DNA from: a virus | Length of the DNA: 23,221 nucleotides | Direction: 5' to 3' (one strand) | IMG/VR virus record: IMGVR_UViG_3300025645_000473 | Coordinates: 1-23,221 of that record | Shown here: positions 1 through 13,179 of the stretch, piece by piece | Layout of the letters: the number at the start of each line of letters is the position of its first letter | Position numbering within the stretch: position 1 is the stretch's first letter | Notes under the pieces: model-generated | Databases searched by the model: none | Seen by the model: only the letters and a program-made list of their open reading frames with translations | Told to the model about the DNA's origin: nothing | Program-made: the position numbers and the translations under genes

Positions 1-833
1 AGCTCCTTCCATGCGCTAGAACGCATTGCACTGGTGATGATTGCCTCACGGTTATGACGCGCTGTATGAGGGCTGCGCATATCCTGAGTGTGTGTCGCCC
101 AATGCGTTAGGGTATTGTATAAAGCCCACTTGTTCGGGCCGAGATGTCCTCGCTCATCGCCCCATAGACCGAGCAGGTTTTCTAGTTGGCGCTCGTTAGT
201 CTTGGTGGTGTTGGCTTGGCGAGTGTGCATTTTGCAGAGGTGCTTTTTGAAGAAGCTTTCTGCTTGGTCATTGCTGATCTTTACACCCATGTAAGATTGC
301 CATATGTCCTTCTGTTCTTTAAAGGCAGACATCCCATTAGCAATCTTGATAGCCGATCCTTCTACGTTAATGGATCGTGTGTGTTTGTATTTAGAATAAG
401 CTGAGATGTCAGCAGTAGTGCAACCGTTCTTGCACCATAACCGATTGCCTTGACTCCATTGAGCAAACGACCAACTACCATCAAGACTGTTGGTTGCTAG
501 CGCTTCGTATCGCACATAGTCACCGACCTCTGGTTCGATAGTTACATCAGGCCATATGATCCTAGCTCTTAGCTTGCGACCACCTTCATAGACTTCAATC
601 TTAGTCTTGAAATCTGAACTAATGTTAGCTGCTTTGGCTGCATCAAGTATAGATTCAACAGCTAGGTCATGGCTAACAGGTTTGTATTTACTGCCGTGAA
701 CACCCATCACTTCATCAGTGTCAGTGCGGATCACTTGTACCGAATTGGGTACAGGCTCACCAGTCACAGCGTTAGGCGTTGGCATCATCTTGATTGGGAA
801 GTTCCAATCGTTGATGGGCTTCATAAAAGTCAT
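1..833 (-). CDS. DUF932-type phage/plasmid-like protein, 3' end cut by window edge
   Basis: Leftward gene open from the ATG at 833 to the left edge, so the C-terminus lies outside; about 277 residues are visible. AGGAG lies 8 bases before the ATG. An in-frame upstream ATG at 851 has no ribosome binding site, so 833 is preferred. The protein begins MTFMKPINDWNFPIKMMP. It has the mixed alpha/beta look of the DUF932 (TIGR03299-like) family and near its end the typical stretch NKWALYNTLTHWATH followed by basic helices. Members occur on phages and plasmids near replication or early genes; their biochemical role is not established and I assign none. It points away from the structural genes, so it probably belongs to a separate early unit. 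The family call rests on remembered sequence pattern only. Confidence 0.72.
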   Translation of the reverse strand, partial: MTFMKPINDWNFPIKMMPTPNAVTGEPVPNSVQVIRTDTDEVMGVHGSKYKPVSHDLAVESILDAAKAANISSDFKTKIEVYEGGRKLRARIIWPDVTIEPEVGDYVRYEALATNSLDGSWSFAQWSQGNRLWCKNGCTTADISAYSKYKHTRSINVEGSAIKIANGMSAFKEQKDIWQSYMGVKISNDQAESFFKKHLCKMHTRQANTTKTNERQLENLLGLWGDERGHLGPNKWALYNTLTHWATHTQDMRSPHTARHNREAIITSAMRSSAWKE

Positions 834-897
834 TTTGTTTCTCCTTTTCATGACTGTAGGGACTGCTAGTATGCAGTGTTAATAATTAATAATCTAT

Positions 898-914
898 TGT
901 TACGTTACGTCACT
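898..914 (+). repeat. 17-bp motif TGTTACGTTACGTCACT, copy 1
   Basis: An exact 17-bp match to 1856-1872, in the same orientation. It contains tandem TTACG and a TACGTCA half-site. Both copies are intergenic, one on each side of the leftward 127-aa/26-aa gene pair, which suggests a shared binding site rather than chance. Confidence 0.7.
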
Positions 915-1101: not shown

Positions 1102-1182
1102 TCAGGTAAGTAATGATAACACAACAAACAGCGCCACAAAGAGTGACGCTGCTGCGATTGTGTCTGACAGTAGCGGTGGCAT
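1102..1182 (-). CDS. 26-aa single-span membrane peptide
   Basis: A small leftward gene starting at the TAATG junction where the 127-aa gene stops, so it is probably translated by re-initiation. The product is 26 residues. It starts MPPLLSDT, then has a continuous hydrophobic stretch (about residues 9-25) rich in Ala, Leu, Val and Phe, ending at Thr26. This is long enough to cross a membrane once and there is almost no soluble part. Small one-span peptides are common in phage early operons and can be inhibitors, membrane anchors or holin-like proteins; the sequence does not say which. It has no Shine-Dalgarno of its own, consistent with coupling. The frame is short, so chance cannot be excluded. 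Confidence 0.55.
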   Translation of the reverse strand: MPPLLSDTIAAASLFVALFVVLSLLT

Positions 1183-1565
1183 TAAGCCACTCGCTTTCTG
1201 AGTTCAGAGAAGTTACGTTTCTTGGGGGTGGCAACTGGCTTGTTCGGTAGCCAAGTCTCACCGCCGCTAAAGTGCTTATAAACCTCAATGTCTGCATCGT
1301 GTCGGACTTGAAGCTCCTCAAGCTCTGGGCAAAGGCGATCAATCCAGCGTTGGGTGCGTTCTTGATCGTGTAGATTCTTAACCTCAACAGCTATGTCATA
1401 TTCAGCTAGCGCGTCAGCAATTTGCTTACGTTTGAATTGCAAGCTGTTGTGTGACGTATAGCAAGCATCTCTAGATAGACCTACGAGGAACTTGCTATTA
1501 TCGTGGTTATGATAGTTTATAACTTCGAGTTTCAGTTTTGCGAGTTTAGATAATACCTTAGTCAT
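1182..1565 (-). CDS. Hypothetical 127-aa protein
   Basis: Leftward gene starting at the ATG at 1565, with a strong AAGGAG site about 8 bases upstream. I do not recognise the family. The protein is charged and looks soluble. It has an N-terminal Lys/Leu-rich segment (LSKLAKLKLEV), a probable strand region, a helical stretch around residues 43-80 (RKQIADALAEYD, LHDQERTQRWIDRL) and a basic C-terminal tail (PKKRNFSELRKRVA). No catalytic motif or membrane segment is visible. It heads a leftward unit with the coupled 26-aa peptide, and its 5' leader carries the large branched inverted-repeat element. An overlapping 101-aa frame in the same strand lacks a good start and is rejected. Confidence 0.7.
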   Translation of the reverse strand: MTKVLSKLAKLKLEVINYHNHDNSKFLVGLSRDACYTSHNSLQFKRKQIADALAEYDIAVEVKNLHDQERTQRWIDRLCPELEELQVRHDADIEVYKHFSGGETWLPNKPVATPKKRNFSELRKRVA

Positions 1566-1591
1566 TGCTAGTTCTCCTTGTTATGTGGTGC

Positions 1592-1736
1592 GAGGATCAT
1601 CCCCGCACGGCGACTTGAAGCACGGAGCAGAAACGCCCAAAGGCGCTTGCAGTTCGCAATATCCGAGGTACGAGCGGTATTGCGAACTGTTTCTGCCCGA
1701 TGCTCAACAAAGACGGGCGGGGATGACCGCAGCCTC
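1592..1736. other. Large branched inverted-repeat element (possible structured RNA or cruciform)
   Basis: Nested complementary arms give a branched fold. The outer stem pairs TCATCCCCGC (1597-1606) with GCGGGGATGA (1717-1726), and GAGG (1592-1595) with CCTC (1733-1736) may extend it. An inner stem pairs GCAGAAAC (1627-1634) with GTTTCTGC (1689-1696). Within it are a small hairpin, GCC/GGC with loop CAAA (1635-1644), and a long hairpin, CAGTTCGCAATA (1650-1661) with TATTGCGAACTG (1678-1689), 12 perfect pairs extendable by three after a bulge. In leftward transcripts it lies in the 5' leader of the 127-aa gene, ending about 25 bases before the start codon. No T-run follows, so it is not a simple terminator. 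Confidence 0.65.
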
Positions 1737-1811
1737 CACTAGCAAGGTGATCGACGCTTTGACTAATTATCTGAACGAGCAAACTGTAACGAGCGGTGTA
1801 GTATGTGGTAG

Positions 1812-1872
1812 TACGTCAATAGCTTTGGCAAGGTGTGACGTAGGGTAATTGGCAATGTTACGTTACGTCACT
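1812..1872 (+). promoter_or_regulatory. Cluster of TACGTCA half-sites including 17-bp repeat copy 2
   Basis: TACGTCA occurs at 1812-1818 and 1864-1870, with the reverse complement TGACGTA at 1836-1842. The latter two form an 8-bp inverted repeat, GTGACGTA/TACGTCAC (1835-1842 and 1864-1871). The right-hand part (1856-1872) is identical to 898-914. Three half-sites within 60 bp, with centres 24 and 28 bp apart, in a divergent control region suggest an operator array. The binding protein is unknown. Confidence 0.5.
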
Positions 1873-1873
1873 A

Positions 1874-1901
1874 TTGACAGCACATCACAGGATGGTGTTA
1901 G
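1874..1901 (+). promoter_or_regulatory. Weak candidate rightward sigma70-type promoter
   Basis: A perfect TTGACA -35 hexamer (1874-1879) sits two bases after the 17-bp repeat. The best -10 at normal spacing is only TGTTAG (1896-1901, three of six matches), so activity would need an activator, possibly one bound at the TACGTCA cluster. It would serve terS and the packaging genes. Confidence 0.25.
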
Positions 1902-1904
1902 CGT

Positions 1905-1927
1905 GGGGGGAGAGAGGGAGAGGGGGG
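1905..1927 (+). other. Polypurine G-run tract
   Basis: An uninterrupted purine stretch of 23 bases containing runs of six, three and six G. It could form a two-layer G-quadruplex or a triplex, pause polymerases, or mark a packaging region. A second G-rich tract lies just after terS (2447-2459). Confidence 0.5.
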
Positions 1928-1938
1928 CAAGCGAATGA

Positions 1939-2044
1939 GACATACAATGATACAATCCTTCTTTATGATGCTTGCACCATCTAGCAAACACAGACAACAA
2001 CAGTTAGCTATGTGTATGTCATCAGCATAGAAGAAAGGATTGTA
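1939..2044 (+). promoter_or_regulatory. terS 5' leader with crossing inverted repeats covering the ribosome binding site
   Basis: TACAATCCTT (1951-1960) is perfectly complementary to AAGGATTGTA (2035-2044), which contains the terS Shine-Dalgarno AAGG. GACATACA (1939-1946) is complementary to TGTATGTC (2013-2020). The four arms alternate, so the pairings would form a pseudoknot or be mutually exclusive. Either way terS translation could be controlled by RNA folding. Confidence 0.45.
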
Positions 2045-2046
2045 AC

Positions 2047-2421
2047 ATGGGTGAAGTTACCCGAAAGTTGACAGATAAACAGACAGCCCTCGTTGACACC
2101 ATTGTAGCAAATGGCTGCTCCATCAAGGATGCTGCTCCAATAGCAGGTTATGCAGTTGGCGAGTCTGGAAGAGTAACAGCAACCAAGACTATGAAGTTGC
2201 CTCATGTGCAGCAGTACATGATGGAAAGGATGAATGAGGAGTTTGGATTATCGGCTACTATCGCTGCAAGACAACTCCGTACCTTGGTAGTCAACGCCAA
2301 GTCTGAGTATGTCCAGTTAGAGGCATCGAAGGATTTGCTAGACCGTGCAGGGTATAAACCGATTGATCGCAGCCAAGTGCAGGTTGCAGGGGACATACGT
2401 GTCTCAATCGATCTAGGATAA
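2047..2421 (+). CDS. terS: Terminase small subunit (probable)
   Basis: A 124-aa protein likely to recognise phage DNA and hand it to the large terminase for packaging. The N-terminus (KLTDKQTALVDTIVANG, then IKDAAPIAGYAV) matches the helix-turn-helix style of phage small terminases, in which K.LT.KQ is followed by an AA..AGY helix. A second helical part with LPHVQQYMMERM (about residues 52-65) resembles the P.VQ.YI segment of this group. The rest (about 75-110) is helical and suited to oligomerisation. Larger than T7 gp18 (89 aa). The ATG is preceded by AAGG at 8 bases. It begins the rightward packaging module, with terL 1.5 kb downstream, which supports the call. It could be another HTH regulator, but position favours TerS. 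Confidence 0.75.
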   Translation: MGEVTRKLTDKQTALVDTIVANGCSIKDAAPIAGYAVGESGRVTATKTMKLPHVQQYMMERMNEEFGLSATIAARQLRTLVVNAKSEYVQLEASKDLLDRAGYKPIDRSQVQVAGDIRVSIDLG

Positions 2422-2441
2422 AACTGTTCATTGATCGTTCC

Positions 2442-2473
2442 GTCATGGGGGTGGGGGGGAAAAACTGCATGAC
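2442..2473 (+). other. G-run enclosed by a 6-bp inverted repeat after terS
   Basis: GTCATG (2442-2447) and CATGAC (2468-2473) enclose runs of five and seven G separated by one T, then AAAAACTG. No T-run follows the second arm, so an ordinary terminator is unlikely. It may be a pause site, a G-quadruplex half or a terminase-related site. Confidence 0.4.
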
Positions 2474-2520
2474 CTGTTACTGTAATAGTCTCTCACTAAC
2501 ATTATTTCCTTTCAGAGCTT

Positions 2521-2536
2521 GCCCACGAATGTGGGC
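2521..2536 (+). terminator. Compact GC-rich hairpin before the small-gene cluster
   Basis: GCCCAC (2521-2526), loop GAAT, GTGGGC (2531-2536): a perfect 6-bp stem with a tetraloop, followed by TAATTT rather than a true T-run. It sits between terS and the next genes, directly before a TTTGTGCATTG motif. A weak terminator placed before a new promoter is the likeliest reading; an RNA stability hairpin is the alternative. Confidence 0.4.
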
Positions 2537-2537
2537 T

Positions 2538-2550
2538 AATTTGTGCATTG
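2538..2550 (+). promoter_or_regulatory. TTTGTGC(A/G)TTG motif, copy 1 (candidate phage promoter)
   Basis: AATTTGTGCATTG in the gap between terS and the small-gene cluster, 33 bases before the next start codon and just after a hairpin. Similar blocks occur at 5440, 8708 and 21058. No consistent -10 hexamer follows the four copies, so it is not a plain sigma70 promoter; a phage-specific promoter element is likelier. Confidence 0.5.
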
Positions 2551-2583
2551 TCAAAAATATTTTTATCTGCATAAGGTTCTGAC

Positions 2584-2691
2584 ATGAGTAGATTTGACCG
2601 CACCCCAGAGAAGCAGCCAGAGAGGGCTGACATGACTGTCGCCAAGGCTGCGCTCAAGAGTGGTGGATACTTAAGAAAGAAGAAGGAATGA
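2584..2691 (+). CDS. Hypothetical 35-aa basic protein
   Basis: A short gene with AAGG 9 bases before its ATG, ending in an ATGA overlap with the next gene. The product starts MSRFDRTPEKQPERADM and ends in GGYLRKKKE: a charged peptide with a Lys/Arg-rich end and no membrane segment. Family not recognised. The overlap with a well-supported gene and the ribosome binding site are the main evidence that it is real. It is the first of a series of small basic proteins between terS and terL, so a role in packaging or DNA binding is possible but unproven. Confidence 0.55.
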   Translation: MSRFDRTPEKQPERADMTVAKAALKSGGYLRKKKE

Positions 2692-2957
2692 GGAAGGAAC
2701 ATAAGAGCAAGACTGGCGGCTTGACTGCTGCGGGTCGCGCTCACTTCAAGCGCAAGGAGGGGGCTAATCTAAAGCCGCCTGTTCCCAAGGGTACAAATCC
2801 TCGTCGTGTTTCTTTTGCTGCTCGGTTTGCAGGAATGAAAGGGCCGATGAAAGATGAGAAGGGTCGCCCGACTCGAAAGGCATTGGCATTAAAGAAGTGG
2901 GGCTTTGGCTCTGTGGAAGCGGCTCGTAACTTTGCGAAGCGTCACAAGAAGGGATAG
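2688..2957 (+). CDS. DUF6321-type small basic phage protein
   Basis: An 89-aa, strongly basic protein. Key features in order: SKTGGLTAAGRAHFKRKEGANLKPPVPKG (split here as SKTGGLTAAGR near residues 7-17 and NLKPPVPKG near 27-35), then FAARFAGMKGPMKD, GRPTRKALALKKWGF and a basic tail, AKRHKKG. This run of TGGL.A.GR, LK.PV..G, SF.AR..GMKGPM and PTRKALALKKW is the recognisable pattern of DUF6321 proteins, frequent near terminase genes of marine phages. Function is unknown; the charge suggests nucleic-acid contact. It starts in an ATGA overlap with the 35-aa gene. Confidence that it is a real gene is high, and for the family fairly high from memory. Confidence 0.75.
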   Translation: MRKEHKSKTGGLTAAGRAHFKRKEGANLKPPVPKGTNPRRVSFAARFAGMKGPMKDEKGRPTRKALALKKWGFGSVEAARNFAKRHKKG

Positions 2958-2960
2958 ATT

Positions 2961-3152
2961 ATGTGTTTTGGCAGCAGCGCTCAGAAGACAGCAGAAAAGT
3001 ATTATGAAGAGATGAAGGTAGAGCCTGAAGCTTTGCCTTCTCTTATGATGGACAAGAAGAAGCGCAGCGATGTGAAGTTGGGGGATGTTCCGAAGCCAAT
3101 AAGCGGTGGTCAGAGTTCTTCGTTGCTGACAGCTTTGAAGAGTAGTTATTGA
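2961..3152 (+). CDS. Small MCFG-start protein (63 aa)
   Basis: Starts ATG at 2961 with AAGGGA about 8 bases upstream, three bases after the previous stop. The product starts MCFGSSAQKTAEKYYEEM, has a charged middle with KKKRSDVKLGD, and ends in a Ser-rich LLTALKSSY. The opening MCFG followed by a small-residue run is shared with the gene at 5503 and with many short marine-phage proteins. It has no signal sequence, so a lipoprotein is unlikely. Function unknown. It overlaps the next start by one base (TGATG), so the two are translationally coupled. Confidence 0.65.
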   Translation: MCFGSSAQKTAEKYYEEMKVEPEALPSLMMDKKKRSDVKLGDVPKPISGGQSSSLLTALKSSY

Positions 3153-3412
3153 TGCCAGAGCAGAAGACATCTCCGTCTGAAAGAAAGTACGATAGCCTTC
3201 TCAATCAAATGAAAGCCTTTGAGATACCCACTAAGGTAACGGATGAAGAGGCGCAGAATAAATGGCTTCGCCGTTATCACAATGTAATGGTAGACGTTGC
3301 GTCTTACATTCGCAGCAAAGACCCAAAGTATAAGTCTCTTCTCAGCCAAGCAAAAAAGATTGAGCGGAGATGGAACTTGGAGGGGAAATACACTAGGGGA
3401 GGAAAAGATTAA
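3152..3412 (+). CDS. Hypothetical 86-aa protein
   Basis: I take the ATG at 3152, which overlaps the previous stop codon as TGATG, rather than the TTG one codon earlier. The product is helical and charged: MPEQKTSPSERKYDSLLNQM, a DEEAQNKWLRRYHNVMVDVASYI helix (here cited as KWLRRYHNVMVDVASY around residues 37-52), then KSLLSQAKKIERRWNLEG and a basic tail, RGGKD. Coiled or bundled helices are likely; there is no catalytic motif or membrane segment. Family not recognised. It ends in a TAATG junction with the next gene, inside the small-gene cluster between terS and terL. Confidence 0.65.
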   Translation: MPEQKTSPSERKYDSLLNQMKAFEIPTKVTDEEAQNKWLRRYHNVMVDVASYIRSKDPKYKSLLSQAKKIERRWNLEGKYTRGGKD

Positions 3413-10558: not shown

Positions 10559-13179
10559 TGCAAAAGATCAGAGTACCAATTAGCAGCTTTCAGTATGGCG
10601 AAATAAGTGACTCTCTTATTATGAGAACTGACACTGCCGTCTACAATGCGTCAGCGCAAAGCCTACAGAACATGGTTGTTATGGCAGAAGGGTCTGTCAA
10701 AAAGCGTTATGGCCTAAAGCACATCTATGACTATGGATTAAGGTATGTATCTTCTGACGGCACTGGAACTGCTGACGATGATGGAGTTGTTACTCAGTTT
10801 ACAAACACAGGGCAAACTAGCTTTACACTAAATGGAGCATTTGTTTCTGGAGGCGCTGCGTCATTTGGAACTGACGGAAGACTTGTTACATTCTACAATG
10901 ACAGCAACGCATCGGCGGGAACTCCAATTCCGTCTGCGCTTAATCTTGTCTTAACAATTACTGGCACAGATATATATGGATTAGCCCAGACGGAAACGAT
11001 TGACCTAGATGACAATACAGCAACCTACACAAGTACAAAGTCTTTTAAAACTGTTACTGCGGTTTCTATAAATACTGCACCAACAAACTTTAATCTAAAA
11101 GTAGGCGTTACTGCTGCGCTTGATTATATAAACAAAGAAGAGCAATCACATCTGTTTCCTTTTGTTTTTGATGAAAACGAAGAATACATCATCTCGGTAG
11201 AACATCAGAGAGTAAGATGCTTTCGCCTTCTAACAGACGGCACAATAAGTCTTGTTTCTACTATAGTGGCAGACACAAGTAGCGCAGCGCTGCCCTTCGA
11301 TCAGGATTATTTAAAAGAATACACCATATCGCAGTATGGCGATGTTATGTTTATTTGCCATCCACTCTTTGCGCCAAGGATGCTGACGCGAACAAGCCTT
11401 ACTGCATTTGAGATTTCTACATATAGCTTTGACAAAAGGGCAGATAACAGCGCTACGTTTCAACCTTACTCTAAGTTTCAAGGTCATGGCGTAACGCTTG
11501 ATCCTAGCGCTACAACTGGGACAGGAATAACCTTAACAACAAGCGCTGCATATTGGGATACAACAGGCAGTCAGTCTGGTGGCAATTATCCTGACTCTCT
11601 TCATGTTGGCGTAGTGGTTAGATATAGCGGCAACGAGATTACAATAACGAGTGTTCAGTCTGCGACTCAGGCAACAGGTAATGTTGTTGATGAACTATCA
11701 ACGCGCCTGTCTGTTTTAAATCCATTTCGCACTATTGATGGAAGCACAACTGTAGAAGTCACAATGATTGAGCATGGTTTTGCAGGTAGTGAATCCATTA
11801 CTTTTTCTGGGGCTTCAGCAACTGGCGGTATTAATACTGGCAACTTAAATGGAGCTAGAACTGTAAGCGGAATTATCGACGAAAACACATTTACCTTTAC
11901 TGCGGGTGGCGCTGCTTCTTCTGCTGAAGATGGCGGTGGTCAGGTAACTGTTGTAACTCATGCACCTAGATCAGATTGGGATGAGCAAGCTTGGTCGGCT
12001 AAACGTGGATACCCTGCGGCTGTTGAGTTCCATGAGAACCGTCTTTGCTTTGGTGGTACAATAGCAGAGCCAGATAATATCTGGATGTCACAGCTTGGTG
12101 AGTTCTTTAACTTTGATGTGGGCGATGCGGCAGATACAGATGCTATCTCTATGGTGGCTGCAACAGGTGATGTTAATGAAATAAGGTATCTTGTTTCAAA
12201 CAGAGACTTGCAGGTGTTTACTGCATCTAATGAACTTTATATTCCAACCTACCTTAATCAAGCCATTACGCCGACCAACGCACAGATAAGAAAGCAGACA
12301 CCATATGGGGTCGAACACGTTGAGCCTATGTCAATAGACGGCGCAACAATCTTTGTGCAGAACAATGGCAGGATTATTCGGGAGTATATCTACACTGACA
12401 CAGAGGAAGCCTATACTGCGACATCTGTTTCTACGATTGCCTCTCATTTAATAGATGCCCCAAAGTATTTAGCCGTTGTTCATAGCGGCTTTGGCCTTCC
12501 AGACTCATACGCTGCCTTAACTCTTAACAATGGCGACCTTGCATTGTTCTCATCAAACAGAGCGGAGAAGAGAGCATCATGGACTAGGGCAGTAGCCAAT
12601 GGCACATTTGGTTCAGTTTGCAGCATTGAGGATCGCCTGTTTGCTAATGTGTATGACGCAAGTGGCAACTTAAAACTTTGTGAGTTTGACACTGAGGTGG
12701 GATTAGACTTCTGGCTGTACGGTGCAGTATCAACTAATGTTGTTGATGTAAGCGCCGTATATTCTTCTGGCGATTCTGTTGATGTAATTGCTATTAAAGA
12801 TTCTACACAGTATTCGCTTGGAGCTTTTACTGTAAATGGAAGCAATCAGGTTGATCTTACTGCACACGCTTCAGAAAGCTATACCCACGCTTATGTAGGC
12901 AAGAAGTTTACAGCTAAGATAATAACAAATCCTGTTGATGCTGCTGTAAGCAATGGCCCTGCAACTGGCAGTGCGAGAGGAATTACCAACATTGTTTTAG
13001 ACTTAAAGAACGCAAACTCAGTTAAGGTAAACAGCAGAGCGCCAACGATGTCTTCTGGATTTACTGGCAAGAAAGAGTTCCGATCTTTAGGTTATAGTCG
13101 TGACCCACAAGTTACAATCGAACAAGATGACCCGCTTACTATGCAGGTTAATGGAATAATTGCGGAGTTAATAATCTAA
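10558..13179 (+). CDS. Tail tubular protein B (nozzle), T7 gp12-like
   Basis: 873 aa, comparable with T7 gp12 (794 aa). It forms the tip of the short tail. N-terminus: VPISSFQYGEISDSLIMRTD, then AQSLQNMVVMAEGSVKKRYG, the usual .F..G..SP.L..R.D...Y..... .N....  .G....R.G nozzle opening. Middle: EENRLCFGG-type segment, here EFHENRLCFGGTIAEPDNIW (about residues 491-510), typical of these proteins, plus YGVEHVEPMSIDGATIFVQN. Beta-rich and repeat-free throughout, with an extra Thr/Ser/Gly-rich region at about residues 330-470 that may be an inserted domain. Junctions on both sides are TAATG. Confidence 0.92.
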   Translation: MQKIRVPISSFQYGEISDSLIMRTDTAVYNASAQSLQNMVVMAEGSVKKRYGLKHIYDYGLRYVSSDGTGTADDDGVVTQFTNTGQTSFTLNGAFVSGGAASFGTDGRLVTFYNDSNASAGTPIPSALNLVLTITGTDIYGLAQTETIDLDDNTATYTSTKSFKTVTAVSINTAPTNFNLKVGVTAALDYINKEEQSHLFPFVFDENEEYIISVEHQRVRCFRLLTDGTISLVSTIVADTSSAALPFDQDYLKEYTISQYGDVMFICHPLFAPRMLTRTSLTAFEISTYSFDKRADNSATFQPYSKFQGHGVTLDPSATTGTGITLTTSAAYWDTTGSQSGGNYPDSLHVGVVVRYSGNEITITSVQSATQATGNVVDELSTRLSVLNPFRTIDGSTTVEVTMIEHGFAGSESITFSGASATGGINTGNLNGARTVSGIIDENTFTFTAGGAASSAEDGGGQVTVVTHAPRSDWDEQAWSAKRGYPAAVEFHENRLCFGGTIAEPDNIWMSQLGEFFNFDVGDAADTDAISMVAATGDVNEIRYLVSNRDLQVFTASNELYIPTYLNQAITPTNAQIRKQTPYGVEHVEPMSIDGATIFVQNNGRIIREYIYTDTEEAYTATSVSTIASHLIDAPKYLAVVHSGFGLPDSYAALTLNNGDLALFSSNRAEKRASWTRAVANGTFGSVCSIEDRLFANVYDASGNLKLCEFDTEVGLDFWLYGAVSTNVVDVSAVYSSGDSVDVIAIKDSTQYSLGAFTVNGSNQVDLTAHASESYTHAYVGKKFTAKIITNPVDAAVSNGPATGSARGITNIVLDLKNANSVKVNSRAPTMSSGFTGKKEFRSLGYSRDPQVTIEQDDPLTMQVNGIIAELII

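Follow-up and report, generated by a model that had tools for sequence, protein, structure and literature searches.

A predicted branched leader with two competing pairings, opposite the terminase genes of marine phages

Structured 5' leaders that limit ribosome access are known from early phage genes, including the leaders of lambda N and cIII and other leaders controlled by RNase III. The put antiterminator RNAs of phage HK022 are two simple hairpins, folded RNA with which an early set of phage genes begins. The phi29-type packaging RNA is about 140-170 nt long and contains a three-way junction; it lies near packaging genes and keeps its structure while the sequence drifts. In translational riboswitches, e.g. 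SAM-II, two exclusive pairings decide whether the Shine-Dalgarno sequence (SD) is free (PMC9373788), and a phage glutamine riboswitch was reported in Melnitz (PMC9004378). The cabRNA of staphylococcal phages is a structured, sequence-diverse RNA produced from within terS-terL on the sense strand (PMC10686824).

In the window (the whole stretch of DNA analysed, 23,221 nt), positions 1576-1757 are predicted to form a branched element with a three-way junction. The contig is a 23-kb IMG/VR virus record with terminase, portal, capsid and tail-protein matches. The nearest isolate among the phage records is the Pelagibacter phage EXVC031P Hodr (TerL 64.6% identical). The element precedes a left-facing gene for a 127-aa protein, predicted to be a two-helix hairpin (AlphaFold pLDDT 87). 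This protein has no Pfam match and only weak PHROG matches, and no significant fold match to its AlphaFold model was found. The second left-facing gene encodes a DUF932 protein (window 3-851, minus strand; Pfam 1e-15) and is incomplete at the window edge. The features of the region are the following:

1182..1565, minus strand: left-facing gene of 127 aa, downstream of the element; 45 viral loci carry relatives
1574..1579, minus strand: SD AAGGAG of the 127-aa gene, from the sequence and the spacing to the ATG at 1565-1563
1576..1757, minus strand: complete structured leader, spanning the SD-pairing stem at its base through to the upstream arm; adjoins the start codon of the 127-aa gene; z -6.8/-7.0
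1588..1608, minus strand: competing hairpin P1' immediately ahead of the SD, built from arm b GTGCGGGG (which it shares with P1), a loop and arm c CCTCGCAC
1590..1731, minus strand: core element of 142 nt (outer stem, inner stem and two hairpins); matched by covariance model R1 with 139.7 bits
1617..1633, minus strand: inner stem P2, one side; pairs with 1690-1705
1634..1645, minus strand: hairpin A, CGCC(CAAA)GGCG, with a tetraloop; from the predicted fold and the alignments
1650..1689, minus strand: hairpin B, a 12-bp stem CAGTTCGCAATA..TATTGCGAACTG with near-invariant GTTCGCAA..TTGCGAAC (near-invariant columns of alignment A1), followed by the linker CAAGC
1690..1705, minus strand: inner stem P2, other side; pairs with 1617-1633
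1717..1728, minus strand: arm a of the outer stem P1, GGTCATCCCCGC; pairs with arm b; compensatory changes in alignments A2 and A3
1736..1747, minus strand: anti-SD arm CCTTGCTAGTGG; pairs with 1576-1588; relatives have a counterpart in different letters
1814..1819, minus strand: left-facing TTGACG box, then TACTACA; about eight relatives keep it upstream of the element
1831..1948, no strand assigned: conserved block of the divergent control region with TTGACA boxes and the TGACGTAACGT motif; 85% nt identity to L068/L069 though the elements differ

All four sets of complementary arms named in the original prediction are present at window 1592-1736. The nested arms lie within that extent; however, the structure is longer, and in its basal stem (1576-1588 with 1736-1747) the SD of the 127-aa gene is paired. 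The branched fold is confirmed, but two states are possible: segment 1588-1608 can form a hairpin of its own, in competition with the outer stem. The outer stem P1 is formed by ATCATCCCCGC and GCGGGGATGA (about 1596-1606 with 1718-1727), and the inner stem contains AGCAGAAA and TTTCTGCCC (about 1626-1633 with 1690-1698). Read leftward, the order is the 5' anti-SD arm, arm a, P2, hairpin B, the linker CAAGC, hairpin A, P2 again, arm b, arm c, the SD, and the ATG. The fold of 1580-1750 has -83.5 kcal/mol on the plus strand (z -6.8) and -80.8 kcal/mol on the minus strand (z -7.0). None of the 200 shuffles was as good on either strand, which bears out the view that this much nested pairing is beyond chance. 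Moreover, the element is the strongest among 923 segments of 170 nt across the 23 kb (-84.4, with the runner-up at -69.1, a mean of -40.6 and an sd of 7.5).

The element has no match to a known riboswitch or tRNA, as had been supposed. Rfam 15 gave no match above the gathering threshold in the window, with only a chance-level snoU30 match (E 4.2), and membership of a tRNA, tmRNA or Rfam family was rejected as none was found by Rfam or ARAGORN. A search of the literature, incomplete in its coverage, found no earlier description. The element resembles the lambda N/cIII and RNase III-controlled leaders in its alternative structures and in the long duplex near the SD. This near-perfect duplex might be a candidate for cleavage, as in RNase III-processed leaders. 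The lambda N/cIII leaders differ in sequence and architecture, whereas the element is a three-way junction with competing P1 and P1'; unlike them, it is kept across a large group of marine phages with fast sequence turnover. Like HK022 put, it is a (predicted) folded RNA at the start of a gene set, but it is longer and includes the SD. The phi29-type packaging RNA is similar in size, three-way junction, sequence drift and packaging-gene neighbourhood; however, the element is encoded on the strand that leads away from the terminase genes, joined to the SD of a different gene, and this position and strand argue against membership. The translational riboswitches SAM-II (PMC9373788) and the Melnitz glutamine riboswitch (PMC9004378) are likewise cis leaders with exclusive pairings at the SD. 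The element differs from these riboswitches in having no Rfam match, and its pocket-like conservation is limited to hairpin B plus the linker in one clade; a ligand would be only hypothetical. Similar to cabRNA (PMC10686824), the element is structured, sequence-diverse and in the terminase region; cabRNA lies inside terS-terL, whereas the element is outside those genes.

Relatives were collected from IMG/VR by TerL, 127-aa-protein and DNA-pattern searches. Dozens of related contigs of marine phages have this architecture in the same place, between the terminase genes and the left-facing gene. The covariance model R1, built from ten of the relatives, matches 25 of the 57 loci of the first search (E < 0.001; 32-140 bits); each of these loci has a single match, oriented like the left gene in every case. 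Eleven members of the closest set have a core of constant length (142-143 nt). Distant members carry long inserts in hairpin B, and their R1 matches extend to about 230 nt. The other loci mostly also have a strong branched fold before TerS, often in different letters. At one locus (L240), R1 scored 81 bits, but the 234-nt leader fold only modestly beats its shuffles (z -1.8). This contig was binned in a marine Euryarchaeota MAG and carries a 40% relative of the 127-aa protein; it is probably a wrongly binned phage contig. An exact-pattern scan of IMG/VR returned 31 stretches, all of them upstream of a relative of the terminase small subunit and/or adjoining a relative of the left gene, and the element DNA had no match in the phage and plasmid records. 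A dispersed mobile repeat was therefore rejected.

The stems were compared for covariation among the homologues, a check that the original prediction had named as able to refute it; compensatory changes were found, and the prediction stood. Changes on both sides were present in 34 of the 37 pairs of alignment A3, including compensatory change in 9 of the 12 pairs of hairpin B. The alignment cells with such two-sided changes numbered 191, whereas shuffles gave 66 and slid controls no more than 56. The covariation score was 0.473 (0.138 shuffled, at most 0.096 in slid controls). A3 was fitted to R1 and hence leans to the model; the MAFFT alignments A1 and A2, which were made without the model, agree with it.

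Pairing of the SD is what a cis-acting translational leader should have, and in the window fold the predicted long-range pairing of the SD is 0.82. Across the left-gene leaders this value averages 0.57 and exceeds 0.5 in 41 of 64 lineages, where in loci without the 127-aa gene the left gene and its start codon were picked by rule (the ATG frame with an SD nearest TerS) and some picks may be wrong. The control genes gave lower values: 0.23 for TerS (>0.5 in 10 of 62), 0.23 for portal (4 of 13) and 0.22 for the 89-aa gene (1 of 12). The letters of the SD vary by lineage (AGGAGAAC, AAGGAGTC, AAAGGAGTA or GAAAGGAGG), and the opposite arm follows. For example, GTTCTCC pairs with GGAGAAC in one case and GACTCCTT with AAGGAGTC in another.

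Arm b can pair either with arm a, forming the long stem, or with arm c, forming the short hairpin just before the SD. The two predicted pairings exclude each other, and both show covariation at the sequence level. The hairpin P1' is kept in 15 leaders with compensatory and G-U changes. In the subclade of the window, an A-to-G change in arm b is matched by a T-to-C change in arm a, and b:c is still paired via G-U. Since such A-U to G-C changes of a:b leave b:c paired through G-U, both pairings appear to be kept.

Judged from the sequence, the element may best be read as a structured leader at the 5' end of the mRNA for the left-facing genes, which would hide the ribosome-binding site of the first gene (probability about 0.58). 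This leader is probably a two-state switch. In the closed state, the long stem would hide the ribosome-binding site and the first protein would not be made; opening of the stem would free the SD. Three opening routes are conceivable: the long duplex could be cleaved, for which RNase III is the natural candidate; a protein could bind the near-invariant hairpin B and linker; or the RNA could switch to the short hairpin P1'. The leader would thereby set the timing or the amount of the first left-facing protein.

A comparable stem precedes the left gene set of Hodr, which was cultured on Candidatus Pelagibacter HTCC1062. In the Hodr leader CATTTTCCTCCTTTGG lies opposite CCAAAGGAGGATAAAATG (z -6.6), and the opposite arm is a near-inverted copy of the SD plus start codon. 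Relatives of Hodr have a similar stem in other letters. The R1 search of Hodr gave no match, so the Hodr stem is called analogous, not a proven homologue. The gene set behind the stem encodes ArdC, an HTH+DnaT protein, a YqaJ recombinase and an SSB, which indicates that the left gene set probably has early and replication functions. In the fold scan of the Hodr genome, the strongest structure (-75.6 kcal/mol) was located at the 3' part of TerS (L158 about 11626-11815), outside the leader.

The element also appears to move between genomes. In L006 and L007 the element is 93-94% identical to the window at the nucleotide level; TerS is about 71% identical (nt) and the left protein 37% (aa). L005 has flanking proteins about 95% identical to those of the window, yet it lacks a recognisable 127-aa gene and is not clearly matched by R1. 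These patterns indicate that the element is swapped as a module, and such exchange independent of the gene implies that it is not tuned to one protein. L005 is the closest relative by flanking proteins, and its stretch 1336-3380 carries a different cassette between the DUF932 gene and TerS, which suggests a recombination spot.

With odds slightly below even, we tentatively propose a new family of phage leader RNA: a three-way junction with two states that acts as a switch for the first gene opposite the terminase genes, keeps its shape rather than its letters, is exchanged independently of the gene, and has analogues of unrelated sequence in SAR11 phages. Marine podovirus-like phages, including those of SAR11, are very common, and their gene timing is little understood. 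The element spans a broad phage group and, given its strong covariation support, would add a new family of RNA; an analogue is available in a cultured phage. The strict conservation of structure, set against rapid sequence replacement and gene-independent swapping, raises the question of what drives this diversity.

The original prediction had listed a cis-acting leader among several options, and this one is favoured by position, SD sequestration, the compensatory changes and the alternative hairpin. A role at the DNA level is unlikely but still deserves weight. The inverted repeats could then form a cruciform or single-stranded hairpins, for instance to start replication, to mark a site of recombination or packaging, or to give a DNA-binding protein a nested operator in the divergent control region. 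Both strands fold almost equally, the pairs are mostly Watson-Crick with no G-U excess, and the cassettes are exchanged from genome to genome; lineages that have the fold but no SD pairing, and the replication and recombination proteins of the Hodr divergent set, also suit such a role. However, in about two thirds of lineages the structure extends at its base to the SD or the start codon, more than a DNA site would require, and the competing second pairing beside the SD is kept. The GC skew merely follows gene direction; it offers this reading no help, and its turning point was rejected as an origin signal. In strand-neutral folding, single (1x1) mismatches were G-T in 9 cases and A-C in 35, and one-sided changes of Watson-Crick pairs gave G-T/A-C counts of 31/41, 18/24 or 6/17 depending on the identity cut. 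The G-U changes outnumber A-C in A2 (28 vs 4) mostly through two nearly fixed G-U pairs, and the excess in P1' is likewise largely due to these. In A3 the counts are 44 vs 30, or 13 vs 30 minus the two pairs. These two pairs are wobbles in the leftward RNA sense, which speaks against a DNA element. The position and the SD pairing point to RNA, and the wobble statistics do not establish selection on RNA over DNA; the better folding of the opposite strand in 53 of 72 windows does not favour a leftward RNA either. The absence of a wobble preference could be explained by a DNA role; a preference could also be hidden by concerted change of the two arms or by selection for very stable duplexes.

A leader RNA might also act on transcription or RNA stability, through antitermination of the HK022 put type or as a 5' stabiliser or processing site, with the SD pairing as a side effect. 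This is rather improbable. Its position at the head of the left-facing genes is as expected, and hairpin B with its linker is near-invariant, like a binding site. Moreover, the large fold exists in L022, L056, L069 and L072 with little predicted long-range SD pairing, so that SD hiding may not be the sole role. Against this, the region yielded no terminator-like sites, the near-invariant motif occurs only in the clade of the window (with no R1 match in Hodr), and SD coverage is common and follows different letters.

A separate small RNA from either strand, e.g. a decoy or packaging RNA, is very improbable: the nearly constant core size in the closest set, the sharp structure, the adjoining terminase genes and the slightly better folding of the opposite (rightward) strand in 53 of 72 windows would fit it, but no promoter/terminator pair was found on either strand, nothing similar is in Rfam, and TerS of Hodr has its own consensus promoter (TTGACA-17-TATACT) beyond the element. 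The location of that promoter also makes a rightward leader of TerS unlikely.

For the favoured mRNA leader, most elements have a conserved left-facing TTGAC box on one side and the start of the gene on the other. The TTGACG box at 1814..1819 is a possible left promoter; a sigma-70 consensus scan reported no left promoter, this box included. Sites of the form TTACGTTACGTCA / TGACGTAACGTAA occur at window 900-912, upstream of the DUF932 gene, and at 1858-1870 in the divergent control region. With two mismatches allowed, this motif has 10 occurrences compared with 1.8 expected, and the sites are likely an operator of a phage regulator. The 89-aa protein (window 2688-2957, plus strand) belongs to a widespread family, and its gene is common to Methylophilales, Pelagibacter and cyanophages (about 70-81% nt identity over short stretches).
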